Shown one piece after another: positions 20,319-42,500 of a stretch of DNA of 64,000 bases. Location of the stretch: positions 1 to 64,000 of IMG/VR virus record IMGVR_UViG_3300019850_000208. The stretch is one strand, 5' to 3'. The notes beneath the pieces were generated by a model that was not told where the DNA came from, ran no database searches, and worked only from the letters and a program-made list of their open reading frames with translations. The DNA is from a virus. Position 1 is the first letter of the stretch. Every line of letters begins with the position of its first letter. The translations under genes and the position numbers were made by a program.

Positions 20319-20387
20319 AAAATGAAAAGATAGTGGTGCTATGTTTTGTTATAAGGAAATTAAAAATGAGGTAAAATAAAAAATGAA
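20263..20387 (+). repeat. 61-bp tandem duplication at a gene junction
   Basis: 20263-20323 and 20324-20384 are identical copies, with the match running on for three more bases. The unit covers the last 19 codons of the methyltransferase and the first codons of the downstream start. The first copy's ATG at 20322 now reads only MKR before a stop, while the second copy's ATG at 20383 opens the radical SAM gene. Confidence 0.95.
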
Positions 20388-21507
20388 TAATGATAATATT
20401 TGGTCTAATCCATATAATCCATTTCAAAAATTTAAGATACTTGCTTGGTATGATCGAATGAAAAGTATTCAAAAAGGGGAATATCAAGCACCTGTTAATA
20501 TTGCTCTTGATATTTGTCAAGGTACAAAAGATCATAAGTTATGTGGTGGATTTAATTGTAATTTTTGTATGAGTAATCTTGAGGATGTAGGTAAAATATC
20601 TTATATTCCAGAAAAGATTTTATTAGAAATTCCTAAATTTTATTCTGAATGGGGTGTAAAATCAATTTGTTTAGCCGGTAATAATTCAGATCCATTAATG
20701 TATAAACATTCTACTTTAATTAAATTTCTTGAATTATGTAAGAAATGGAATGTTGAAGTTGGATTTGTTTCTAATGGAGCATTTTACACACAGAAATTAC
20801 TTGAAGTGGTAGCAGAAACTTGTAAGTGGAGTGGGTGGAGTGTTAATGCTAGTACTGCAAAAACTCATTCAATATTGACAGGGATGCCAGAAAAAACTTT
20901 TCATAAAATTATTTCTAATATAGAAAAGATGCATGATTACATAGAAAAGAAAAATCTTAACCATGATATTGGGTATAAGTATTTAATAACAAATGAAAAT
21001 TATAATGAAATTTTTGTTGGAGTAAAATTGGCTAGTTCAATCGGAGTGAGGCATTTTCAGATAAGGCCATGCGAATTACCTGAGTGGCGTAGAAAAAAAA
21101 TAAATGTAAAAGTAGTAGAAAGACAAATTAAGAAAGCATTAAAACTTGAAAGGCCTGGTGAGTTTGAAGTATTTGGTATTAGAGAAAAATTTAAAGTTGA
21201 TTTTTCCAAGAAACCACCAAAGAGATGTATTGCAAGTCCACTAGGTTCAACTTGGAAAGCTGATGGTGATATTGTAATTTGTCCGGATAGGAGATGGTCG
21301 GCACATCAACCAGATATGACATTAGGTAATTTTATTAAAGATGGACTTCCAGCTATTATAAAAAAATGGAATGGTATTGAGCATAAAAAAATGATAGCCG
21401 CGGCGAATAAACATATTAATGAATGTATTAGGTGTACATCCTATAGTTGGCATGAAATTTATGAGGAATGTGTAGCTAAGGATTCACTTGATATTACATT
21501 AATATAG
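20383..21507 (+). CDS. Radical SAM/SPASM-type protein with an unusual cluster spacing
   Basis: 374 residues. The cluster motif is CX4CX2C (C54, C59, C62 in CGGFNCNFC) rather than the common CX3CX2C, with a further Cys at 45. An AGNNSDP loop follows as in the family. The C-terminus has a Cys near CIASPLG, CPDRRW and CIRCTSYSWHEIYEEC, which looks like a SPASM or twitch domain for auxiliary clusters. It resembles phage and bacterial radical SAM proteins linked to surface modification. It is the last gene of the AT-rich island, with a plausible role in making an unusual sugar or side chain. Confidence 0.8.
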   Translation: MNNDNIWSNPYNPFQKFKILAWYDRMKSIQKGEYQAPVNIALDICQGTKDHKLCGGFNCNFCMSNLEDVGKISYIPEKILLEIPKFYSEWGVKSICLAGNNSDPLMYKHSTLIKFLELCKKWNVEVGFVSNGAFYTQKLLEVVAETCKWSGWSVNASTAKTHSILTGMPEKTFHKIISNIEKMHDYIEKKNLNHDIGYKYLITNENYNEIFVGVKLASSIGVRHFQIRPCELPEWRRKKINVKVVERQIKKALKLERPGEFEVFGIREKFKVDFSKKPPKRCIASPLGSTWKADGDIVICPDRRWSAHQPDMTLGNFIKDGLPAIIKKWNGIEHKKMIAAANKHINECIRCTSYSWHEIYEECVAKDSLDITLI

Positions 21508-21530: not shown

Positions 21531-22067
21531 ATGGCAAAAAAAATATTATTCACACATATCCCTAGAACCGGCGGGACAACAATTAAAAGATTGCTTAAAG
21601 GAAAGATAACTTTTCTTAAGGATCATACTGGCTTTGATGAAATACCGCTACAACAGTATAATAATTATTTCAAAGTGGCTTTTGTAAGAAACCCGTGGGA
21701 AAGATATCTGTCTATGTATATTGAGAATAGTATTGGCCACATTTTCAGAGCGGAACCATTTGAATGGATCTCTTTTGATAACTATATATATGATTTGTCT
21801 AATACTTTTATGAAAAAAAGGCAACTAGAATTTATATCTTTTGATGGCCAAATAGTGGCAGATTTCATTGGAAGATATGAGAACTATGAGAAAGATTTTT
21901 ATAAGCTATGTGAAATAGCAGGCATAAAAAACGTAGAGCTCAACTTGAAATTGCGTTATAATGGCGATTATAATTACAGGAAGTTCTACAATAATGACAC
22001 TAGGGAATTTGTAGCAAAATATGCTAAGCGAGATATAGAATATTTTAACTATAAATTTGGGGAATAG
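21531..22067 (+). CDS. Small sulfotransferase family protein (second copy)
   Basis: 178 residues, starting after a TGGAGG site. HIPRTGGTT (residues 9-17) and FVRNPWER are the PAPS-binding motifs. It is the paralog of 344-883 with the same length and layout. It lies directly before APS kinase and an HxGH nucleotidyltransferase, so three consecutive genes could activate sulfate and transfer it. The acceptor is likely a sugar made in the same locus. GC content here returns to the level of the rest of the phage. Confidence 0.85.
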   Translation: MAKKILFTHIPRTGGTTIKRLLKGKITFLKDHTGFDEIPLQQYNNYFKVAFVRNPWERYLSMYIENSIGHIFRAEPFEWISFDNYIYDLSNTFMKKRQLEFISFDGQIVADFIGRYENYEKDFYKLCEIAGIKNVELNLKLRYNGDYNYRKFYNNDTREFVAKYAKRDIEYFNYKFGE

Positions 22068-22068
22068 T

Positions 22069-22605
22069 ATGGCCCATGTTCTATGGTTTACCGGATTGTC
22101 AGGTTCAGGCAAAAGCACTCTTGCAAATAGAATAAAAAAACACTTTCCAAAATATGTACTGCTAGATGGTGATGTCTTGAGGAAAGGTTTGTGTAATGAT
22201 TTGGGTTTTTCCATAGAAGACCGTGAAGAAAATATGCGGCGTCTGATTGAATTGTGCAAAATATTTATTGCTAATGACATAAGTGTAATAACGGCTTTTA
22301 TTTCTCCATTTAATGATGCTAGGAAGCTTGCCAAAAAAGAAATAGAAAAACTTGGCGGAAAATGTTATATTATATGGTGTAAATGTCCTCTTGCCGCATG
22401 CCAGAAGAGAGATCCAAAAGGATTATATCTCAAGGTTGCAAAAGGAGAGATAGAGAACTTTACAGGCGTAACCAGCCCTTATGAACCGCCATCTGCTCCA
22501 TATATGAAAGCAGACATAACTATTAATACCGCAGAATTAGATATAGATGTTTCTACTAATGAAATAATTAGGTTTTTGATAGGAGAACAAGATGTACTTT
22601 ACTAA
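22069..22605 (+). CDS. cysC: Adenylylsulfate (APS) kinase
   Basis: 178 residues from the ATG at 22069, right after the sulfotransferase stop; an alternative TTG 12 bp earlier is less likely. Walker A is GLSGSGKST (9-17), followed by LLDGDVLRKGL. The family's CxRDPKGLYxKA segment is present (CPLAAC..RDPKGLYLK), then GEIENFTGVTSPYEPP. The enzyme phosphorylates APS at the 3' hydroxyl to give PAPS, the donor of the sulfotransferase. Overlaps the next gene by 14 bp. Residue spacing matches bacterial CysC throughout. Confidence 0.95.
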   Translation: MAHVLWFTGLSGSGKSTLANRIKKHFPKYVLLDGDVLRKGLCNDLGFSIEDREENMRRLIELCKIFIANDISVITAFISPFNDARKLAKKEIEKLGGKCYIIWCKCPLAACQKRDPKGLYLKVAKGEIENFTGVTSPYEPPSAPYMKADITINTAELDIDVSTNEIIRFLIGEQDVLY

Positions 22606-23008
22606 TGCTGAGCCACAAGAACCACATGTGGCTTTTATAGGCCGATGGGCTCCACTGCACAAGGGACATACATATATAATGATGGAGATGATGAAAAAGA
22701 GGCATCTTCCTTTATTAATATTGGTTAGAAATACTACTTTTGATGAAATAAATGCCAATATCCGAGCCGAGTTGGTTAAGATGTGGATGATAGCTGAAGG
22801 TATAAAAGGAACAATAATGATAATCCCCGATATAGAGGGAATATATTATGGCCGCGGCGTAGGTTATAATATAGAGGAAATAAAGCCATCAGAAAATATA
22901 ACGGCCATCTCAGCAACAGAAATAAGAAAAAGAATGGCAAATAATGATAATTCATGGAAAGAGCTTGTTGCTAATGGAACAGCTGAATTTTTGGAATCAA
23001 CATTATGA
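22592..23008 (+). CDS. HxGH nucleotidyltransferase, possible ATP sulfurylase substitute
   Basis: 138 residues. FIGRWAPLHKGHTYI (about 16-30) is the HxGH motif of the cytidylyltransferase-like superfamily, and AISATEIRKRM near the C-terminus is the ISxTxIR motif that binds the triphosphate. The same pair is found in NadM/NMNAT, PPAT and, in modified form, ATP sulfurylase. Because the gene overlaps APS kinase and follows the sulfotransferase, the best guess is that it makes APS from ATP and sulfate. Role as an NMN adenylyltransferase cannot be excluded. Strong AGGAG site. The mechanism class is sure, the substrate inferred. Confidence 0.6.
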   Translation: MYFTNAEPQEPHVAFIGRWAPLHKGHTYIMMEMMKKRHLPLLILVRNTTFDEINANIRAELVKMWMIAEGIKGTIMIIPDIEGIYYGRGVGYNIEEIKPSENITAISATEIRKRMANNDNSWKELVANGTAEFLESTL

Positions 23009-23703
23009 GTAGATTTTATATACTTGCGACCGGGCCGTCTATTAATAAGATAAAAGAAAAGGAATGGGAATTTCTTAAAAAGCAGAATACCATGGGAATT
23101 TCGTGGTTTGCCAAATACGGTTCTTTCCAGCCAAAATATTATTATTTTCACGAGAGCAATCAACGAAAAACAATGCACAAAATACTGGCTGATTTCAAAC
23201 AGACTTTTTTCATAACTACAAAAAATCATAAATTGCCGTCAGATGCCATACGGGAAAAGAGATATCAATATATTACTCACACTCCATTCAAGGAAGCATT
23301 TAAAGGCAAGATATGGTATAATGACGAACCTGAGCCTCCAGCATCTTTTGCAAAAGTGTGGGCAAAGGATTTCAGTCAACAACTTTTGGGTTTCAGAGGA
23401 ACTTTAATTGCCGCAATGAATGCTGCTTCAATTTTGGGTGCCGATGAGCTTTTTTTATGTGGCGTGGATTTAAGAGATAACAGGCATTTTTACCAAAATG
23501 AGGAAAGCAATTTATTTAATGATGGCCTTAAAAATAAAGGCATAAAATTAAAAACACATTCTTCAGCGGTATCCTTTGACAATATCAGAACAGTATTAGA
23601 CTGTTTGAGATGGTTAAGTAAGTATCTTACTATTTACGTGACCAATAAAAAAAGCTTACTGTACAAAAAGAAAATACTAAAATATAGGCCCATAATATGC
23701 TAG
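23005..23703 (+). CDS. DUF115/GT42-like protein (second copy)
   Basis: 232 residues. ILATGPSINKI at the start and LGADELFLCGVDLRDNRHFY later are the DUF115/GT42 glycine loop and GxD motifs seen in the paralog at 16251-16886. The ATG overlaps the previous stop by 4 bp, and the next gene's start overlaps its end. It may be a sialyltransferase or another nucleotide-sugar enzyme using the NeuB product. A conserved His in the HFY segment follows the GVD motif, as in that family. Confidence 0.65.
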   Translation: MSRFYILATGPSINKIKEKEWEFLKKQNTMGISWFAKYGSFQPKYYYFHESNQRKTMHKILADFKQTFFITTKNHKLPSDAIREKRYQYITHTPFKEAFKGKIWYNDEPEPPASFAKVWAKDFSQQLLGFRGTLIAAMNAASILGADELFLCGVDLRDNRHFYQNEESNLFNDGLKNKGIKLKTHSSAVSFDNIRTVLDCLRWLSKYLTIYVTNKKSLLYKKKILKYRPIIC

Positions 23704-24587
23704 ATGTTTTACTGCTGACACATAACAATCTTAAAACATTAAATAAATGTCTTGATGCTCTGAGCGATCATACAGACGCTAAATATAGAATATTTATATT
23801 CGATAATGGCTCTACAGATAAAAAGTTTCTTGAATATCTAGATAGTATAACCGACCGGAAAATACATATATCAAAAAATGAAAGTAATATAGGAATAGGG
23901 CCCGGGAGAAGAATTTTATCCAATCTTGCGGATGGAAATTACTTGATGTTTTTAGATTCGGATATGATAGTGACATCTAAATGGGACTATTATATGAAAA
24001 GAGTAATGGATAAACAGGATGCTGATGCGGTTTCTGCGCGATTTAGGAAAGGAACAAGTGATTATATTCAGGCCAATGGCGGATATTATTACGTTAAAAA
24101 AAAGAAATATATTTATATAGAACATTATGATGAAGGCAAAGAAGCAGGATCTCCGGCAGTAATAAGAAAATGTACATGGCTCCCAGGCGGCGTTATGATG
24201 ATATCTAAAGAAGTCAATGATAAAGTTAAATACCTTTCTTTCGGGTATAAAATTGGTTTTGAGGATATAGATTTTTCATTCCAAATGCGAAACGCCGGGT
24301 TTAGACTCTATAGTTGTCCATTTACTGATTTTCGTCATTTGCATCTCGAGAAAGAATCCGGTTATGCTCAGGTGCGTAAAGACAAAGTCGAGTTGCTTTT
24401 GTCTATCGCTCTTTTTACGGAGCGCTGGCTATTAAATCCAATTCGTAGCTGGACAGTAGATAATTTTTTGTTCAAGAAAAGATTAACGGATGCCGAAATA
24501 GACAAATTAATTCGGTGGGTGATCCAGAATCGAGATAACCGAGAGCTTATAGAAACAAGAATAATGCGCATAAGAGGCGCTAGATGA
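23697..24587 (+). CDS. GT2-type glycosyltransferase
   Basis: 296 residues. DVLLLTHNN and IFIFDNGSTDKK at the start, FLDSDMIV (the DxD motif) and IGFEDIDFSFQMRNAGF are the family-2 GT-A features. The remaining C-terminal part is helical and may bind the acceptor. It overlaps its neighbours by 7 and 4 bp, so the group 23005-26361 is one transcription unit. Confidence 0.82.
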   Translation: MLDVLLLTHNNLKTLNKCLDALSDHTDAKYRIFIFDNGSTDKKFLEYLDSITDRKIHISKNESNIGIGPGRRILSNLADGNYLMFLDSDMIVTSKWDYYMKRVMDKQDADAVSARFRKGTSDYIQANGGYYYVKKKKYIYIEHYDEGKEAGSPAVIRKCTWLPGGVMMISKEVNDKVKYLSFGYKIGFEDIDFSFQMRNAGFRLYSCPFTDFRHLHLEKESGYAQVRKDKVELLLSIALFTERWLLNPIRSWTVDNFLFKKRLTDAEIDKLIRWVIQNRDNRELIETRIMRIRGAR

Positions 24588-25264
24588 CCATTGATGAATA
24601 CTTTGACAGAATATTTGTTATTAATCTAGATCATCGGAAGGATAAATGGCAGTTGGTGACCAAGAATTTGGATAACATGAATATTACAAATTATGAAAGG
24701 TTTTCTGCCATCAAACCAGATTATAATGATATATCTCCCGAATACAAAGCATGGTTTAGCTCCAAAAATCATTCCGATGGTCCTGACGAAACTTATACAG
24801 TGGGTGCCATGGGATGCAAGATGAGTCATTTGAGGGTTATCAATATTGCGAAAAACCGAGGATATGATAAAGTTCTAATACTGGAGGATGATGTAGAATT
24901 TAGGCAGGATGCTCAAAAATTGTTTGATATGGCAGTGGCCCAATTAGAAGGCCTGCCACCCTGGGATATGTTGTATTTTACCGGAAATCATGGAAGACGC
25001 TATGATAAAGTTTCCAACAATATTATTAGAATCCACGGAAGTCATTCTACAGTTGGATATGCTGTGCACTCGCGTGTATTCAAAACGATTGTAGAGAATG
25101 GACCAAAATATTACAAACACATAGATGTGTTTTATAAGGATAAGATTCATCCATTCTATAATTGCTATTGCATAACTCCGCACATCGTATGGAACATGGA
25201 TGGATATAGCGATATTGAGCAAGGATTTCGTGAGTATAGGGTTTTGAAAAGAAGGTATATATAA
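24584..25264 (+). CDS. GT25-type LPS glycosyltransferase
   Basis: 226 residues. FDRIFVINLDHRKDKW near the start, MGCKMSHLRVI and VLILEDDVEF (the DxD-like motif) are typical of the LPS/Lex2B-type GT25 family, which adds galactose or glucose to lipooligosaccharide. It is unusual for a phage to carry one; acting on host LPS is one option. ATGA and TAATGA-type overlaps join it to both neighbours. Confidence 0.85.
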   Translation: MTIDEYFDRIFVINLDHRKDKWQLVTKNLDNMNITNYERFSAIKPDYNDISPEYKAWFSSKNHSDGPDETYTVGAMGCKMSHLRVINIAKNRGYDKVLILEDDVEFRQDAQKLFDMAVAQLEGLPPWDMLYFTGNHGRRYDKVSNNIIRIHGSHSTVGYAVHSRVFKTIVENGPKYYKHIDVFYKDKIHPFYNCYCITPHIVWNMDGYSDIEQGFREYRVLKRRYI

Positions 25265-26361
25265 TGAGAGTTGCTATAATTATATTGACACACAATCGTG
25301 CCGATAAATTGAAAAAACTGTTGCAGACAATCAGCAATAGTACAAAAGAAGCCCACTCTATCTATATCCTTGATAATGGCAGCACGTTGGAATATAATAC
25401 ATTTAATGAGATTGATGATAAATATGATTTAAATTTTTTTAGAAGTACGGATAATTGGTATCCAAGCAAAGCCAGAAATTATCTCTTTAGCAAACTTGAA
25501 AATGAAGAGTTTGTAGTCACATTGGATGACGATATGATGGTGACTGATGGATGGTTAACTGAATTATTGAAATTAGTTCAAACAAGTGATAAGTGCGCAG
25601 GTGTATCACCACGAATCCTTCAAGAGAATAAAAATAAGATACATAGCCAGGGTGGATTTTATACGATATCTGATAATTATTTTATAATATTTCAGGAGTA
25701 TTATAGAATGCAAACGCCTCAGAGAAATGAGAATTCAGTTCTCAAGTGCGATTGGCTTGCTTCCGGCTGCTCACTCTATCCCAGAAAAATAATTGACGAA
25801 TTTAGATATGATGAAAACATGCCATGCATGGAAGATCCTTTGCATTCATATGAAATTAAAAAGGCTGGTTATGATTTGTATAGCACATCCAAATCTGTAG
25901 TTATCCATTCGGCCGGCAAGACTGCCAATGTCGCAATGCGCTCTAATGATAATCTTATAAAAGGTATATGCTACTTTCATCAAAAGACCGGTCTCAATCC
26001 AATAAAAAGTTGGTCAATGCACACCAGGCTCATGCGCGGTAAAACTATAACACACGAAACAATAGATCTTTGGTTGCATTACAATAAGGTTAAATTATCC
26101 ATGGTCAATGGGAATTTACATGATATAAAGACCAAAATGAACAATGCGAATAGACACATCAAGCCTATAAATAGCACACCAGCCAATTTCAATAGGAAAG
26201 TTAAGTCAAAACCAGCCATAGAGGTTGATATGAAACATCTGCCACTATCTCAAAGAAGAAATCCAAAGGCGGCTTATAAGCCTGGTTCGAATTCTATAAA
26301 TGATAGACCCAGAAAAAAGCCATTTCCAGCAAGATATGAATATCTAAAGAGAAATCAATGA
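25264..26361 (+). CDS. GT2-type glycosyltransferase with C-terminal extension
   Basis: 365 residues. AIIILTHNRADKL and ILDNGSTLEY at the start, then VTLDDDMMV is the DxD motif. A CMEDPLHSYEIKKAGYDLY segment matches the usual ED acceptor motif. About 100 residues after the catalytic domain are polar and Asn/Lys/Pro-rich with no known fold. It follows the GT25 gene by overlap and precedes another GT2-like gene by overlap. Confidence 0.8.
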   Translation: MRVAIIILTHNRADKLKKLLQTISNSTKEAHSIYILDNGSTLEYNTFNEIDDKYDLNFFRSTDNWYPSKARNYLFSKLENEEFVVTLDDDMMVTDGWLTELLKLVQTSDKCAGVSPRILQENKNKIHSQGGFYTISDNYFIIFQEYYRMQTPQRNENSVLKCDWLASGCSLYPRKIIDEFRYDENMPCMEDPLHSYEIKKAGYDLYSTSKSVVIHSAGKTANVAMRSNDNLIKGICYFHQKTGLNPIKSWSMHTRLMRGKTITHETIDLWLHYNKVKLSMVNGNLHDIKTKMNNANRHIKPINSTPANFNRKVKSKPAIEVDMKHLPLSQRRNPKAAYKPGSNSINDRPRKKPFPARYEYLKRNQ

Positions 26362-27167
26362 AAATAAGTATTATTATACCATATCGCGATCGTAGGAGAT
26401 CTATATATTTTCTTATTAAGGAGTTCCAGAAGCAGCAAGGTTTTCTCCAGGGCAATATGGAAATTATTATTGTAAATCTCGGAAGCTCCAAGGTATTGGA
26501 CAAGCACAAGGCACCAAATTTGCACGAAATTAATATAGATTATGATGGCATTTTCTCACGTGGCTATTGCTGTAATGTTGGAGCGAAGAAGGCAAAATAT
26601 GATATTATATGGTTTGTTGATGCGGATTGCGTGCCTCATGTCAGATTGTTAGAATATATTAATTCCAATTTTGACATGAACAATCCTAATTTTGCTATTA
26701 ATGTGCCGGTCATGTTTCTAAATGAGCAGGCTACGGAAAGTATCATAAATAGTGATTACTCCTGGGAGGATTACATTAAATATAAAAATGATCCTCATCT
26801 CTGGCTCAAACCCCGTATAGATGGAACAAGTCAGGTGTGCATGTTTAAAAGAAACTTCATTGAATTGGGCGGCTATGACGAGACGTTTATAGGTCATGGT
26901 GCTGAGGACTTGTTAATACACGATCAAATTGCCAAATTGCTTCCTAATTATTGGGGTCAATGGCCAAAGACAATAGAGGTAAAATGGTCGATAGAAAGAG
27001 ATTTAATTCTTACACATCTATATCATGGAAAGAGAAATTATCATACTCCCTATATGTCCAATTACAGAAAGAACTGGAATATGTACAAAGCTAAAATTAG
27101 TAGCAATATTATGCGCAATAACAGTGGAAGAGAATGGGGATTAATCGAAAAACCACCAATTAAATAA
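26358..27167 (+). CDS. GT2/GT27-type glycosyltransferase
   Basis: 269 residues. ISIIIPYRDRR at the start and WFVDADCVPH (the DxD motif) are the donor-binding part. GGYDETFIGHGAEDLLI is the GGxDExFxGxGxED motif of galactosyltransferase-type C-terminal domains. This fits transfer of Gal or GalNAc. It is the last glycosyltransferase before the 71-bp gap and neuB. Confidence 0.82.
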   Translation: MKISIIIPYRDRRRSIYFLIKEFQKQQGFLQGNMEIIIVNLGSSKVLDKHKAPNLHEINIDYDGIFSRGYCCNVGAKKAKYDIIWFVDADCVPHVRLLEYINSNFDMNNPNFAINVPVMFLNEQATESIINSDYSWEDYIKYKNDPHLWLKPRIDGTSQVCMFKRNFIELGGYDETFIGHGAEDLLIHDQIAKLLPNYWGQWPKTIEVKWSIERDLILTHLYHGKRNYHTPYMSNYRKNWNMYKAKISSNIMRNNSGREWGLIEKPPIK

Positions 27168-27238
27168 TTTTTTTGTTATAAAAAACGCTACCAATATAAG
27201 CGCCCGCTTGTAGATATTAATATATGAGGGGTGCTAAT

Positions 27239-28072
27239 ATGGTAACAGAAATCATTGCTGAAATAGGATGTAATCATCAGGGCAACTTTGAGACTGCGAA
27301 AGAAATGATCAAGGCTGCCTATTTTTGTAAAGTCTCAATGGTCAAATCTCAAAAACGTACGGTTAAAGAATATTTAACTCCGGAACAATACGAAAGGCCT
27401 TATGATAATCCGCATTCATTCGGAGCGACATATGGCCAGCATCGCGAAGCACTCGAGTTTAGTGCGGATCAGCACAAGAAGTTAATGAGATATGCTAAAC
27501 ATATGGGCATAACTTATTTTGTGAGTGTATGGGATGTCACAGCTGCAAAAGAGATGAATGAAATAGGTATTCCGATAATAAAGATCCCGTCTGCCTGTCT
27601 CACAGATGATGATCTCCTGGAAGAAGTTAAAAGTTTTGGTAAGCCCATATATATGAGTACAGGCATGTCTACTATCAAAGAAATAGATCATGCTGTAGAA
27701 ATTCTTTATGGAACAGATCTTACATTATTCCATTGTACGAGTTGTTATCCATGTCGGTTCGAAGATGTATACTTAAAGAATATTACATTTCTTCGCGAAA
27801 GGTACTCCCTACCAGTGGGACTATCAGGTCATCACTTGGGAATCGCTATAGATTTAGCCGCGGCTATGATTGGCGCTACAAAAATAGAAAGGCATTTTAC
27901 ATTGGACCGCACAATGAAGGGAACAGATCATGCGGCAAGCCTGGAACCGCAAGGCCTGCAAAAACTGGTGAGAGATTTAAAAGCTGTGCAAATTTCATTG
28001 AAGTTTTGGTCTAGGGATAAGATAGTGCCGTGCGAAAAACCAAGTTGGGAAAAGTTGAGAATGGTAAAGTAA
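27239..28072 (+). CDS. neuB: N-acetylneuraminate-type synthase (NeuB), catalytic domain only
   Basis: 277 residues from the ATG at 27239, chosen because a GAGGGG site precedes it. EIGCNHQGNF, the KSQKRT loop, IKIPSACLTDDDLL, GMSTIKEI and GLSGHHLGIA match NeuB/PseI/NeuB-like enzymes. They condense phosphoenolpyruvate with ManNAc or a related sugar. The usual C-terminal antifreeze-like SAF domain (about 60 residues) is absent. Such short forms occur, and may still be active. Its product could feed the DUF115/GT42-like proteins, though a CMP-sialate synthetase is not seen here. It closes the glycan locus. Confidence 0.9.
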   Translation: MVTEIIAEIGCNHQGNFETAKEMIKAAYFCKVSMVKSQKRTVKEYLTPEQYERPYDNPHSFGATYGQHREALEFSADQHKKLMRYAKHMGITYFVSVWDVTAAKEMNEIGIPIIKIPSACLTDDDLLEEVKSFGKPIYMSTGMSTIKEIDHAVEILYGTDLTLFHCTSCYPCRFEDVYLKNITFLRERYSLPVGLSGHHLGIAIDLAAAMIGATKIERHFTLDRTMKGTDHAASLEPQGLQKLVRDLKAVQISLKFWSRDKIVPCEKPSWEKLRMVK

Positions 28073-34514: not shown

Positions 34515-36527
34515 ATGGTAAATTTAATTTTTGTAATAATTAAAAATGAAAATATAAAGGTGTCTTCCGCGGAAGAGATATGCTATTCTCGTAATAAAAA
34601 GGAATACAAGACTTTGCTAATAAACGACAACTATAAATTGACCTCTCGCGACAAAGTGGTATATATTTGTAATAAATGCAATAAAGAAACCACTGAAAAA
34701 TTTAGCAAAAAACATCTTGAAAAGAATTTAATTTGTGCTTCGTGTGCCAGACAAGCAACTAATTTGAATAAGTATGGCGGCAAGTATCCTATTGCCACTA
34801 AAGCAATCAGATACAAAATCGCAAAAACCAATCTGAAAAAGTACGGCGTTGAAAATCCATTTCAAGCAAAAGAAGTTAAAGACAAAATCAAAAAAACTAA
34901 TTTGAAAAAGTATGGAGTTCCATACTCCACTCAGAATCCAGAAGTGCAGCGCAAATCAACGCAAACTAATCTTAAGAAGTATGGAACAAAATACAGCTGT
35001 CAAGCTGAAAAGATCAAAAGAAAAATTAGAGCAACCAATTTAAAAAAATACGGCGCAGAATCTGTTTTATCTGTTGCCAAAATTAGACATAAAATAGAAG
35101 CCACCAATCTGAAAAAATACGGTGCGAAATACGCTCTTCAAGCCGAGAAAGTAAAACAAAAAGCAAAAGAAACTATTAAACAAAAATATGGCGTTGAATA
35201 TATATCTCAGGCCCCTGCAATTCAAGAAAAAATTAAACAAACTAACTTAAAGAAATACGGTGTAGAAAATCCGGCTGCTTCTCAGAAAATTCAAGAGAAA
35301 ATTAAACAAACTAACTTAAAGAAATATGGTGTAGATAATCCTTCAAAATCAGAAGCAGTAAAAGCAAAAAGATCGCTCACAATGCTACGTCGTTTTGGTA
35401 ATACCAATCCGTTCAAGGTCCAAAGTATTATAGACAAAATAACAACTACCAAAAAAAACAAATTTTTGGATGAAATATTCAGTGGTAACAGAGTTGTAGA
35501 AGCGACGCCTTTATTTACGCCCAAGGAATATACAGGCGTAACAACAATGCTTTCTTGGCGTTGTGATAAATGCAACACAGTTTTCAACGACAATTTGGAT
35601 TATGGAAGTGCTCCAAGATGCCCCGTTTGTTACCCTATTTTAAGTAACACCTCTTCCATTGAAAAAGAAGTTAGAGATTACCTTTCATCACTGAATATCA
35701 TTCATATTACGAACGATAGAAATTTAATTCACCCAAAAGAATTAGATATTTTCGTTCCTCAATATAGAATTGCTATTGAGATAGACGGCCTATATTGGCA
35801 TTCCGATCAATTTAAGCCCAAAAATTATCACTTGCAGAAAACACAATTGTGTGAAGCAAAAGGCATTCAGCTTATTCATATATTTGAAGATGAATGGATT
35901 TATAAGCAAAGTATTGTTAAATCGCGTCTCAAATATTTGTTTGGATTGTGTGATCAAACAATTGGCGCCAGATTGACTAATATCCAAAGTATAGAAACTG
36001 CTACCAAAAACATATTTTTAGATACTTATCATATGCAAGGAGCTGATAGATCCAGTATTAAAATAGGCGCTTTTTATAAAGACCGTTTAATGGGGATTAT
36101 GACATTTGTTAAGCCGCGACTATCATTGGGCCAGAAAAAAAGTTTTGCCAATAGGTATGAGCTTTCCAGATATGCTAGTATTGCCAATATATCGCTGCCC
36201 GGTCTGGCATCTAAAATGCTTAAATATTTCATAGTTAACTATAAGCCTCTTGAAATATACACTTATGCCGATCGGCGATGGAGTCAGGGAAAAATATACA
36301 AGCAATTGGGGTTCCAGTTTGTGGGTTTCACGCAGCCTAATTATTGGTACAGTCTTGGTCAAGAAAGAAAACACAGATTTAAGTATAGAAAAAGCGCGTT
36401 GAAAAATTTCAAGAATTATCACCCAAGCAAGACCGAATTTCAAATTATGGATGAGGCCGGCTATTATAGAATATATGATTGTGGCAACTCAAAGTTTGAT
36501 ATGCAATTAAAAAAGCCTCGAGTTTGA
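34515..36527 (+). CDS. Vsr-like/PD-(D/E)XK homing-type endonuclease with ten 23-residue repeats
   Basis: 670 residues. A first zinc-finger-like CNKC..CASC (52-77), then ten tandem 23-residue repeats of the type TNLKKYGVENPxQxxxVKxKIK (residues 82-311), then a second zinc ribbon CDKC..CPVC (350-371). A nuclease domain follows (about 380-470: KELDIFVPQYRIAIEIDGLYWHSD). Next is a domain (about 480-640) with the pattern LTNI..FLDTYHMQG and YTYADRRWSQG.. seen in phage homing endonucleases. The repeats likely read DNA bases. The gene interrupts a leftward fibre cluster on the opposite strand, as expected for a selfish insert, and has its own terminator. High confidence in class, not in specificity. 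Confidence 0.8.
   Translation: MVNLIFVIIKNENIKVSSAEEICYSRNKKEYKTLLINDNYKLTSRDKVVYICNKCNKETTEKFSKKHLEKNLICASCARQATNLNKYGGKYPIATKAIRYKIAKTNLKKYGVENPFQAKEVKDKIKKTNLKKYGVPYSTQNPEVQRKSTQTNLKKYGTKYSCQAEKIKRKIRATNLKKYGAESVLSVAKIRHKIEATNLKKYGAKYALQAEKVKQKAKETIKQKYGVEYISQAPAIQEKIKQTNLKKYGVENPAASQKIQEKIKQTNLKKYGVDNPSKSEAVKAKRSLTMLRRFGNTNPFKVQSIIDKITTTKKNKFLDEIFSGNRVVEATPLFTPKEYTGVTTMLSWRCDKCNTVFNDNLDYGSAPRCPVCYPILSNTSSIEKEVRDYLSSLNIIHITNDRNLIHPKELDIFVPQYRIAIEIDGLYWHSDQFKPKNYHLQKTQLCEAKGIQLIHIFEDEWIYKQSIVKSRLKYLFGLCDQTIGARLTNIQSIETATKNIFLDTYHMQGADRSSIKIGAFYKDRLMGIMTFVKPRLSLGQKKSFANRYELSRYASIANISLPGLASKMLKYFIVNYKPLEIYTYADRRWSQGKIYKQLGFQFVGFTQPNYWYSLGQERKHRFKYRKSALKNFKNYHPSKTEFQIMDEAGYYRIYDCGNSKFDMQLKKPRV
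34758..35447 (+). repeat. Ten tandem 69-bp coding repeats in the endonuclease
   Basis: Ten units of 23 codons each, with core TNLKKYG followed by variable residues, then K[IV]xxK. The DNA copies are related but not identical. At the protein level the repeat length is constant, suggesting one repeat per helix pair in a DNA-binding array. Confidence 0.9.
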
Positions 36528-36545: not shown

Positions 36546-39500
36546 TTATGCAGAAGTTTTAACAAGTTCTACAATGACATCATCAGATGTGTCCAAATCT
36601 ACGGCAGAACTTCCTGTTCCATCAAACTCAATCCTTTTTTCAGTAGATACATAACCATAACTCCACTCAGTATCAAGTAATCTTAGGCCATTGAGATATA
36701 CGGCAACATATAGTTCAGATGTTCTAAGCTCAGTTGCTGTTTTGGAACTAGTTGGAAGCTGATTTGTTAATGAAGCATCCGTTAATGTAATATAATCACC
36801 CGAGGCTTCTGAAGCATCAGGAGTTTGTTCTTCGTATCCTATTTCAACCGCTGTCTGAAATGCTTCATTAATCGCGCCTATTATAGAAGTAGCTGTAAAT
36901 CCTGCAGTAAGTCCAGTTGTACCAGATTCAGAAATTGGAATTGCTGAGCTTAAGTATTGATCATCAAAAGTTATATCTCCACTTGAAGTGGTAAATGCAA
37001 TATCTCCTGCCGCATCTACATCAATACCACCTGAGGAGTTAATATCAATTGCATCAATACTAGATTGGCCACTTGCAAGTGTAAGTTTTCCTGCTGTGCC
37101 ACCTGCAGTTTGAATAGTTAAGTTACTATCACTTGTTTGCCATGTAGCGTCGCCGCCTATTGAATTAATGTTAACAGCGCCGTAGGGTGCCATATGGATA
37201 TAAGCTCCGCTATCTTCATCTATAGTTAAACCATTTGTAACATTCATGTCTATTGCATTACCGGAGCCGGAGACTTCAACCGATAGAATATCATTTCCAG
37301 CGGCATCTGCAAATGCATGTTGATAACCGGAAGTAATCTGCCACTCAACGGAGCCATTGTCCATTGTAACAATTCTATTGCCTGTTTCAGCATCATATAT
37401 TTCATCTAATGTTTCGGTGACGGCAGCCTGCCCATAAGCTTGATTTATAGCTCCTATAACTGATGTAGAAATTCCATCATCGAAGCTTGAATTTGACACG
37501 TCGCTAAACGCGATAGCAGATGTTCTACTATCATCAAATTTAAGTTCGCCCGAACCAGCTATTGTATCAGATTCTATGGTTTTTGTATTTGAATTTAAAT
37601 TATTAGCTTTATCGAATGAGCACTCTATTAAAGTTGTTGAGCCGCCATTAGAATTATCTAATGCGTAACTGCCGCTTGTGCTTAGTGATCTAAAACCTAT
37701 CAATGTGGTATTATCAGCGCCCGTGTCAATTTGCACGGCATTATCAGCCGAAGCGGTCGCATAACAACCATTAAGTGTTACTTGAGTTCCTGTAATTTTA
37801 TATGCATAGCCAGGATAGCTACCGCTTCTATTAACTGTACTCTCAGAACCACATCCATCAAGTGTTATGTTATTTGAGGTAACTATGTCATAGGAAATAC
37901 CACAAGCCTCAGATGCGCATCCGGATAAAGATGAATAAGTCATATTGGTTAGCGCAAAACCTGCTTGAGTGTTGGTGATACCATAACAATCTCTAAAGTT
38001 ACAAGAGGTGCCGCCCCAAACATTAAAACCATGACCTGCGCATTTCAAAGTTTTTACATTTATAAACGTGGATAAAATTGGTGTATTAATTGAAATACCG
38101 TCGCCAGCACACTCTTCAAGTAATATATTTTCCATATATATATGAGGAATGTTTGTGTTGCCAGCTCGTGTGAGGAAAATACCACCGCCACCCACCTGAC
38201 CTTGACCCGGACCTATAATTCTCAAATCAATGAACTTTATATTGCCTAGGTCTGTACCTTCAAAATGTCTATAAGTGGTGTTATCGCTTTTTATTCTGGT
38301 TGCTCTACCCTTAAATCCCTGAATTGTAATATTGCTGTAAAGTATAACAGCTGAACCGGCAGATGCTATTTCGGGTGTAAGATCAAAATTATCAACATCT
38401 ACATATAAAGTTCCACCACTATAATTACTATTTAGATAATCTAGTGCGCTCTGAAAAGTTGTAAATTGCGATAGAAAAGCCGTACCACTCATGTCCTTGA
38501 AAGCGGCTTCGCCTGTAACTGTAAGATTGCCTGTTACATCTACAGTATCGCCGGCACCGAGAGCTTTTATGCTTAGAATGTCTGAACCAAGAGAATCTGC
38601 AACATTGAATTCATAATTATCAGTCATCTGCCATTCAACGGAGCCATTGTCCATTGTAACAATTCTGTTGCCTGTTTCGGAATCATAGGCTTCATCTAAA
38701 GTGCTGGAAGCGGCGAGCACATCACTTTTAACTTCATTAAGCGCGGCTACAACAGAAGTGGCGGTAAATCCTGCAGTAAGTCCGGTTGTACCAGATTCAG
38801 AAATTGGAATTGCTGAACTTAGATATTGATCATCAAAGGTTACATCACCATTAGCGCTTGTTAAAGCAATATTATTATCTGCATCTATATCAACACCACC
38901 TGCGGCCGCGTTAATATCAACTGCATTGAGATTTGTGGCACCACCACTGATAGTAAGAATGCCAGGAGTACCACCACTTGTCTGAAATGTTGCTGGTTGA
39001 TCATCAGAGTTGATTTCAATAGCACCGCCGCTTGCTATATGAACATAGGCACCACTATCATCATCTAATGTGATACCATTACCAGCATCAATATCGATGC
39101 CACCACTGGTGGTTTCAATTCTAACAGCAGCCGCATTGGTTGAGTTACCGGCGACAAGTCTAACTGCGTTAGCTGTGTCGCCACCAATGTTACCAGACAT
39201 GTCGGCATAATCGCCTTGCATGCTCAATGAGGCTGAGCTAGCATTAATTGTCATAGATTGGCCAGAAGCTGAATAGAACTGGACAAGACCACTAGATTGA
39301 ATCCTTAGAAATGCTCCAGAATCATCATCTACCGTAAATCCATTTGTTGTATCAATATCGACAGATGCTGAATTTATGTCGAATAGATCGCCATTTGCCA
39401 CTATTTGATCACCTGCAACCAATGGTCTGATGCTGAATAAATCATTGCCGAGGGAATCTGCGAAATTGTGTTCATAGTTGTCTGTTATCTGCCATTCAAC

Positions 39501-42500
39501 GGAGCCTGTATCCATTGTAACAATTCTGTTGCCTGTTTCGGAATCATACGCACTATCTAAAGTTGTCGATGCTTCACTGGCTTTAAGTATGTCATATGTG
39601 CCTGTGAGATCCTGGAATCTCCACCGATCAGCGGACTCATCCCAGAATAGGGATACATTAGATTGAGAACCACGCTCAATTTCAATGCCTGAGTCTTCAG
39701 TAGGGGAACCACCTGTGTAATTGCTATTTAATACTATTAAGTTATCGGCGAGTTCTATAGTTTCTGTATTTACTATTGTTTGAGTTCCAGTAACTGTGAG
39801 GTCACCATCTATTAGGACTTGACCGGTTCCACTTGTATCTAATGTAATGTCATTATCTGATGCAGCTGTTAATGTTATACCGCCAGAACTAGATTGAACA
39901 ACAACTTCTTTGGCGACATCAATAGTTGCGCCACCTTGTTGAGCTCTGACCCAAATAGCATCATTGTTTGTGTTAGTTGTGTTATTTAGATATATTTGAC
40001 CCGATGTTGCAGAAATGGTTGCGGTACCAGAACCAGATGTTCCAAGAGTTAAAGCACTATTAGAAGCTGTGGTAAGACTTACTGCCCCAGTATTAGTTAT
40101 GGTGAAATTAGCACCGCTATTTTCATCAATTGTGATACCATTATTAGCATTGATATCTACTCGATCTGCATCTACTGTAAATATGCCGTATGTCGCCGCG
40201 GTCGCAAGTACTCTAACTCCACCAGAGGCAGATTGCAGCACTACAGAGTCAATTTGAGTGGCATTCGTGCTTTGTAGCCAAACTTTTTTAGTATCAGCTG
40301 TACTGGATAACTTGACACTGCCGCTAAAGCCCGTTATATCTATATTTTGGCCAATTCCACTTGTCATAGTAATATAGCCACTAGCATCAAAAAGCAACTT
40401 AGAACCACTATCATCATTAAATGTTATACCATCCGCGCTGTCTATATCGATACCACCAGTACTTGCTTCGATCTTGACCGCATCCGCAGCTGCCGATGTG
40501 GTATTTTTAATATAAGATCTGCCATTTACCGAAGAGATGGTTGCATCACCAGTGCCTTGAGTGGTCAACGTTACATTTTGATCTGTAGCACCCTGCAAAT
40601 CAATTTGGCCCGCTGCATTCATTGCCATAGATGCACCTGAATTCTCGGCAATATTAATACCAGAATCTACATCTATATCAATACCACCAGCCGTATCAAG
40701 TTTCCAGGAGTCGGTAGCTGTATTGCCAGTAAGTACGATGTCAACAGCATACGCATCCATATGGATTTCATCGCCAGTTACGAGAGCTTTAACCGAAAAG
40801 ACATCTGCTCCAAGTGAATCGGCTACATTAAATTCATAGTTATCAGTTAGTTGCCATTCGACTGAGCCACTGTCTACAGTGATTATTTTATTGCCTGTTT
40901 CACCATCATATGCTTCATCTAATGTTGAAGCAGCGCCGGCTGTCTTGAGCTCATTAATAGCACCAACAATAGAAGTAGAGGTAAAACCTAGAGCTAATCC
41001 AGTTGTACCAGATTCAGAAATTGGAATTGCTGAGCTCAAATATTGATCATCGAAAGTTATATCACCGTTAGCTGAAGTAATAGAAGTATCTGTATCAGAA
41101 TCTATATCAATACCACCACCTGTATTCGTGGCAGCTATAACAATAGCTGTTGCTGAGGTATTATTTGTGCTTAATTCGACTTTACCACCAGATACACTAA
41201 ATATTTTGGCGGTTCCAGTTGTGGTTTCAAGATTAACATTACCAGCGCCAGGAACCTGAACTTGAAAGTCTTGGCCAGAAGCAGGTTCAAAGAAGATTTT
41301 GCCAGATGTCTGTAGTTGAAAATTACCGCCGCTATTATCGTTTAATGTAAATCCAGCATCAACATCTAAGTCTATACCACCAAGAGTGTCTATTTTTACT
41401 GAGCTTGCGCTTAGATCATCAGTATAAAGATCGAAGATACCGACATCAATATCCATTGTATCATCAGCATTAACATCTATACCACCATTGACGGCATCTA
41501 ATAGTATAGCATCTGCATCAGGGCTTCTAGAATCAATATCAATATTGCCGCCAGCTGCAGTAGATAATCGCTGAATATCAACATTTAGCTGAGATTGCAG
41601 TAGTACATTAGAAGGTGAAACTGCATTGATGTTGCCACCAGAATGCATTTGGAAATATGAGCCGCTATCATCATCAATTCTGAAACCTGCGGTGGTGTTT
41701 ATATCAACTTCATTGTTAGAAACGTTGATATTAAGAACATCGACATTCATTTGGATTTCATCGCCGGAGGCCAGGGCCTTGACGCTTAATATATCATTGC
41801 CGAGGGAATCTGCAAAATTGTGTTCATAATTATCAGTCATCTGCCATTCAACGGAGCCATTGTCCATTGTGATTATCCTATTGCCTGTTTCGGAATCATA
41901 GGCTTCATCTAAAGTGCTGGAAGCGGCGAGTACATCGCTTTTAACTTCATTAAGCGCGGCTACAACAGAAGTGGCGGTAAATCCTAGAGCTAATCCAGTT
42001 GTACCAGATTCAGAAATTGGAATTGCTGAACTTAAATATTGATCATCAAAAGTGATATCTCCACCTGAAGTGGTGAATGCTATATTATTGGCCGCATCTA
42101 CATCAATTCCACCTGAGGAATTTATATCCATAGCATAATTGTCTGACGCAGCGGTTGCTCTTAATATTAGGTGACCTGGAGTTGTACCAGCTGTCTGAAT
42201 AGTTAGAGTGTTATTAGTAGAGCTTAAATCTATAGCACCTGTATTGCCTATATGTAGATAAGAACCACCATTTTCATCGAGTGTAATTCCTTGGCTAGCA
42301 TCAATATCGATACCACCAGTCGATGCATTTATTTTAATAGCATCCGTTGCAGTCGAATTATTGTTAATAATCCATACCCCACCATTGATAGCTTTAAGTT
42401 GAATTGTTCCGGAACCTGTTGATTCCAATGTGACTGTGTGGTCGTTTCCTCCAATTACCGCGACAGCGCCAGTGTTAGCGATAGCTATTTGTGCCCCACT

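Follow-up and report, generated by a model that had tools for sequence, protein, structure and literature searches.

A small HxGH nucleotidyltransferase encoded beside APS kinase and sulfotransferase genes in a tailed phage as a candidate minimal ATP sulfurylase

Three consecutive phage genes probably form a self-contained sulfation cassette, in which a small HxGH nucleotidyltransferase would act as a non-orthologous ATP sulfurylase, a role it would also play in many other phages, some Bacteroidota, Marinimicrobia, Nitrospirota and DPANN archaea. The genes lie in a stretch of 64,000 nucleotides (the window), positions 1 to 64,000 of the IMG/VR virus record IMGVR_UViG_3300019850_000208. This record of 108,574 bases is that of a tailed phage, as read from the tail-fibre matches in the window. 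In the proposed pathway, the HxGH protein would be a stripped-down adenylyltransferase of the NadM-like kind that takes the place of Sat or CysDN and converts sulfate and ATP into APS and pyrophosphate. The APS kinase (CysC) would then phosphorylate the 3´-OH of APS to give PAPS, and the sulfotransferase would transfer the sulfuryl group to an acceptor, both steps being predicted from family membership. The acceptor is most likely a glycan, judging from the glycosyltransferases and NeuB-type synthase encoded nearby. Genomic evidence, namely gene context and complementarity with the known ATP sulfurylases, gives good support to the proposed synthesis of APS by the HxGH protein.

The three open reading frames overlap or nearly touch, as the preliminary description had it: the sulfotransferase (21531..22067, + strand), the APS kinase (22069..22605, +) and the HxGH nucleotidyltransferase (22592..23008, +). 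One base separates the sulfotransferase stop (22067) from the APS kinase ATG (22069), the APS kinase and HxGH genes share 14 bases, and the end of the HxGH gene overlaps the next ORF (23005-23703) by 4 bases; this tight packing suggests a co-translated unit. The ATG at 22069 was preferred as the kinase start, the mechanical ORF list having a TTG at 22057. The three-gene run sits within a glycan-synthesis island. Downstream are glycosyltransferases of the GT2, GT25, GT2 and GT2 types (23697..27167, +; PF00535, PF01755 and PF10111), presumed to make the acceptor, and a NeuB-family sialic-acid-type synthase (27224..28072, +; PF03102, 248.4 bits). A radical SAM protein is encoded upstream in the same gene run (20383..21507, +; PF04055, 33.1 bits against a cut-off of 29.5), and two methyltransferases are also found among the surrounding genes. 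The NeuB-family synthase has only 282 amino acids, and its matches to TIGR03569 (329 positions) do not extend into the C-terminal part of that model. The radical SAM protein shows weak similarity, far below the cut-offs, to tungsten-cofactor maturases and prokaryotic viperins.

Judged by their sequences, the sulfotransferase and the APS kinase are secure family members, and both initial assignments were confirmed. The sulfotransferase, predicted to be PAPS-dependent, scored 38.3 bits with Pfam Sulfotransfer_2 (PF03567, cut-off 22) and matched PHROG 3347 ‘Galactose-3-O-sulfotransferase’ at 1.6e-16. Both of the usual PAPS-binding stretches are present, HIPRTGGTTIK and FVRNPWERYLSMY (VRNPWER..S.Y). 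The kinase, described beforehand as having an intact Walker A and family motifs, reached 172.7 bits with the apsK equivalog TIGR00455 (cut-off 138.7) and 160.7 bits with PF01583, and it matched the PAPS synthetase 1 kinase domain in the PDB at 1.8e-34. It contains GLSGSGKST, DGDVLRKGL, DREEN.RR, FISPF and KGLYLKVAKGEIENFTG; the Walker A, DGD..R, DREEN.RR, FISP and KGLY/FTG lid elements of alignment A6 are all in place, as is every column invariant among eight aligned CysC sequences.

The third protein, of 138 residues, had been called an HxGH/ISATEIR nucleotidyltransferase, and this holds: both motifs (GRWAPLHKGH and ISATEIR) are in the sequence, their residues are invariant, and the AF2 model has the Rossmann-like HIGH-superfamily fold. 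Twelve residues are invariant across the family alignment, among them G17, R18, H23, G25 and H26 in the nucleotide-binding signature FIGRWAPLHKGH (residues 15-26; 22634..22669, +; alignments A1/A3), D80, R88, G91 and Y92 in the family-specific stretch IMIIPDIEGIYYGRGVGY (residues 75-92; 22814..22867, +), and R46. The model obtained with a 78-sequence alignment (pLDDT 91.3) was used instead of one from a 12-sequence alignment (pLDDT 61). NadD, PPAT and ATP sulfurylase (1jhd) were among its Foldseek matches; the matches in the PDB were weak, none at E 1e-3 or better (best E 2.6e-3). No curated family claimed the protein above its cut-off. It scored 23.4 bits with the ATP sulfurylase family PF01747 (cut-off 24.3), which matched only 8 of 80 HxGH members, weakly, and 12.5 bits with TIGR00339 (sopT; cut-off 322.95). 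The archaeal NadM models gave 38.3 bits (NF002243, cut-off 127) and 27.8 bits (TIGR01527, cut-off 181.2).

Archaeal NMN adenylyltransferase was nevertheless the closest HMM in all 80 members, always weakly. By sequence, the nearest solved relatives are NMN adenylyltransferases and not ATP sulfurylases, the best PDB match of the 80-relative profile being archaeal NadM (1f9a, 8e-14), a point that weighs against APS synthesis. NMN adenylyltransferases that restore NAD are known in phages. It could thus be proposed that the HxGH protein is a NadM/NadR-like NMN adenylyltransferase working in phage NAD metabolism, with an incidental place beside cysC. This reading is highly improbable, since the window protein falls so far under the NadM cut-offs, the NadM WV.H...NNP segment is deleted, NAD-synthesis families are absent from the top HxGH neighbours in the Pfam tallies, and the family is linked or fused to APS kinase and linked to CysH, CysQ and sulfotransferases. 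The missing NadM segment and the sulfur-metabolism context were the grounds for rejecting NMN adenylyltransferase activity as the principal reading.

The relationship with archaeal NadM (TIGR01527, NF002243), the nearest sequence relative, is nonetheless informative. GRFQPxHxGH, NPFT, GYEV and ISxTxIR are common to both. Compared with six genuine NadM proteins, however, the HxGH members shown keep the nucleotide-side motifs and lack 27 NadM residues with a conserved Trp and NN (W-V-x-H ... S/T-N-N-P), a segment which we take to be part of the NMN pocket. Its place is occupied by the conserved NYGRGVGY (GRGxGY), within the IMIIPDIEGIYYGRGVGY stretch, and VRDIxPD stands at the position of NadM GIGSAQxSH; the invariant R46 and the GRGxGY stretch belong to the HxGH family. 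In the tree, a branch 4.26 long, supported at 100/100, separates the NadM rows from the HxGH family. Firm clustering with NMN adenylyltransferases, named beforehand, together with a lack of activity on sulfate, as fatal to the APS-making idea, was therefore not what HMM and fold searches revealed: archaeal NadM is nearest, but all scores are sub-cut-off, the separating branch is long and the NadM segment is missing. The loss of the 27 residues would fit a change of acceptor in which a small anion took the place of a bulky nucleotide.

The candidate enzyme also differs from the two known ATP sulfurylase types. Sat/Met3 (PF01747, TIGR00339) and PAPS synthetase share with it the proposed reaction, the HIGH-superfamily nucleotidyltransferase fold and APS kinase fusion in either order. 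However, the 138 residues of the HxGH protein leave no room for the N-terminal PUA-like domain, and Sat QxRNPxH contrasts with GR[WF]xPxH. QxRN(PxHxxH) is the sulfate/ATP-site motif of Sat; both QxRNPxHxxH and the N-terminal PUA-like domain are absent from the HxGH protein. CysDN shares the proposed reaction and the partner gene cysC, but its folds, a PP-loop CysD and a GTPase CysN, are unrelated. No description of an HxGH partner of cysC or of a NadM-like ATP sulfurylase was found in the open-access literature, and this apparently undescribed family seems to stand in for the classical ATP sulfurylase in numerous viruses and in certain bacteria and archaea.

HxGH relatives were found in at least 584 viral stretches, 80 of which were kept, and at no fewer than 57 cellular loci in Bacteroidota, Marinimicrobia (Fidelibacterota), Nitrospirota, Woesearchaeota and other DPANN archaea, and a few other groups. 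The link with APS kinase is pervasive. In all but five of the 79 non-redundant relatives (74), the HxGH gene is either fused to an APS-kinase-like gene or has one no more than 3 kb away on its own strand. Fusions account for 14 of the 79, nine as CysC-HxGH and five as HxGH-CysC; counted over the well-supported tree branches, the CysC-HxGH order calls for six changes or more, and this fusion arose several times independently. Kinase and HxGH distance matrices are correlated (r 0.53; permutation sd 0.03, maximum 0.11), which partly reflects shared descent. In the closest cassette (L181), CysC and HxGH are followed by two transferase-like genes and two sulfotransferases.

The survey of cysC neighbours that had been proposed as a check showed the same pairing recurring massively, with fusions in both orders. 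Among 63 non-redundant viral cysC loci, an HxGH gene was found within 4 kb in 23, CysD or CysN in 3, Sat in 0 and none of these in 37; the 37% HxGH share is biased upward because the sample was drawn with HxGH-linked kinases. At the viral loci tested, neither CysD nor CysN adjoins HxGH, and neither is present in the window run. The 37 loci with no sulfurylase-like gene within 4 kb indicate that reliance on host APS is common. They would also suit a scheme in which host Sat or CysDN supplies APS, the phage contributes no more than CysC and the sulfotransferase, and HxGH acts as an accessory or regulatory subunit devoid of ATP-sulfurylase activity. There is very little to recommend this scheme in view of the invariance of both HxGH catalytic motifs, the CysC/HxGH fusions in two orders and the apparent lack of a known ATP sulfurylase in most cellular carriers (see below).

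Gene neighbourhoods point in the same direction as the kinase linkage, towards sulfur metabolism. Pfam tallies, used in place of a regular-expression screen for sulfotransferases that proved too narrow, rank sulfotransferases first both in viruses (11 Sulfotransfer_3 and 4 Sulfotransfer_2 among 140 ORFs at 42 loci) and in cells (7 among 89 ORFs at 30 loci); Inositol_P and DUF2061 also recur. Three Flavobacteriales loci (L111, L121 and L131) have cysC, then HxGH, one other gene, cysQ, a flippase-like gene and sulfotransferase-like genes, and the L121 CysQ scored 260.3 bits with TIGR01331 (cut-off 228.8). Furthermore, HxGH directly follows CysH in three Nitrospiraceae/Nitrospirales genomes (L108:9030-10402, L109:9071-10429 and L110:1757-3082), and a sulfite/nitrite-type reductase precedes the CysH-HxGH pair in the two complete Nitrospiraceae loci. 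The L109 CysH scores as a thioredoxin-dependent APS reductase (271.9 bits, cut-off 235.3) and the reductase of that locus carries NIR_SIR domains; no CysC is found in that run.

The partner kinases are not uniform. The classic DPKGLY lid occurs in only 25 of 75, and the 50 without it include short forms, two of which scored 68.7 and 75.6 bits when examined against the apsK cut-off of 138.7. The missing lid and the low scores of the short kinases mean that some kinase-HxGH pairs could act on another nucleotide, and the short partners are candidate APS kinases. The CysC homologue Cj1415 of Campylobacter 3´-phosphorylates CDP-phosphoramidate. By analogy, the HxGH protein could activate some other small acid or phosphate, using CTP for instance, and its CysC-like partner could 3´-phosphorylate the product; besides the absent lids and the weak short kinases, a TagD/RfaE-like gene between cysC and HxGH in L113 and L118 may be read in this sense. 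This is unlikely. The apsK cut-off is exceeded by the kinase of the window and by those partner kinases tested from Flavobacteriales and DPANN, APS reductase/sulfite reductase and CysQ occur as neighbours, sulfotransferases lead the neighbour families, and no other ATP sulfurylase was found in most carriers. The TagD/RfaE-like gene is a second HIGH-type nucleotidyltransferase, found in marine Bacteroidota (L113:9538-9936 and L118:9536-9934).

The proposed synthesis of APS by the HxGH protein also draws support from its complementarity with Sat and CysD. In 50 cellular HxGH genomes, Sat (PF01747) was found in 6, CysD in 2 and neither in 42. Ribosomal S7 was recovered in 34 of these 50 genomes (68%), and with this figure taken as the detection rate, p for 8 or fewer finds among the 50 is about 4e-14. 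Controls came from 198 genomes sharing a phylum with one of the carriers; an APS kinase over the cut-off was present in 67, and exclusion of the carrier left 66. Sat or CysD was present in all 66 (CysD over the cut-off in 43, clear but sub-cut-off in nine more not otherwise covered, and Sat in 14), and the HxGH gene in 0 of these 66 genomes. The difference between carriers and controls gives a Fisher p of 7e-24, the carriers being small or partial genomes from several phyla and the controls coming from a single phylum. The idea that every HxGH genome is devoid of another sulfurylase proved wrong: 8 of the 50, including all three Nitrospiraceae, have Sat or CysD, so HxGH is not the only option of those genomes. 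The three Nitrospiraceae keep, elsewhere in the genome, a long Sat of about 588 aa, which matches a Sat-CysC fusion in size.

HxGH proteins are likely to constitute a third class of ATP sulfurylase, about 110-150 residues in length, that evolved independently from a NadM-like adenylyltransferase through loss of the nucleotide-acceptor pocket. This class would be widespread in viruses and in uncultured bacteria and archaea, and many phages would thereby encode the whole pathway from sulfate to sulfated product. If this is true, sulfate activation, a universal entry step of sulfur metabolism, gains a third enzymatic solution, annotation pipelines overlook one type of ATP sulfurylase, and organisms scored as APS kinase-positive and ATP sulfurylase-negative are in fact complete. 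Moreover, many phage cysC genes would serve the sulfation of glycans or other products, and not cysteine supply as usually read. APS kinase carried by phages has already been described among auxiliary metabolic genes, with 62 phage cysC genes explained as assimilatory sulfate reduction (PMC10914622); the text of PMC10914622 mentions neither sulfotransferase nor sulfate adenylyltransferase.

Several other arrangements were observed. The PHROG 10255 ‘kinase’ of Stenotrophomonas-type phages is likewise a kinase-HxGH fusion of the same broad superfamily, but it has a very long branch (3.77) and no sulfotransferase annotated nearby, and it may act on something else. These fusions (L021:5593-6330 and L022:5584-6315, in phages filed under Clavibacter and Stenotrophomonas) were considered too distant to be counted as HxGH family members. 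The L021 fusion has a gene annotated as cysteine dioxygenase in its vicinity, a few genes away. A small HAD-family hydrolase is encoded between CysC and HxGH at four loci (L036:9615-9983, L041:9615-9983, L093:3036-3401 and L100:9571-9957) and forms a fusion with CysC in L030:8977-9942. The hydrolase may serve as a pyrophosphatase or PAP phosphatase and so drive the pathway forward. Small membrane proteins of the DUF2061 type, accounting for 7 of the 140 viral neighbour ORFs tallied with Pfam, adjoin CysC in L063:7661-7906, L064:8517-8762, L093:4269-4484, L100:10326-10553 and L044:3082-3312, and this domain forms the N-terminus of CysC in L036 and L041. Finally, elsewhere in the window, a 670-aa ORF (34515-36527, +) has strong homing/HNH endonuclease PHROG matches (phrog_3339, 465 bits), and a single ORF of 2901 residues (36546-45251, −) adjoins the tail-fibre genes.
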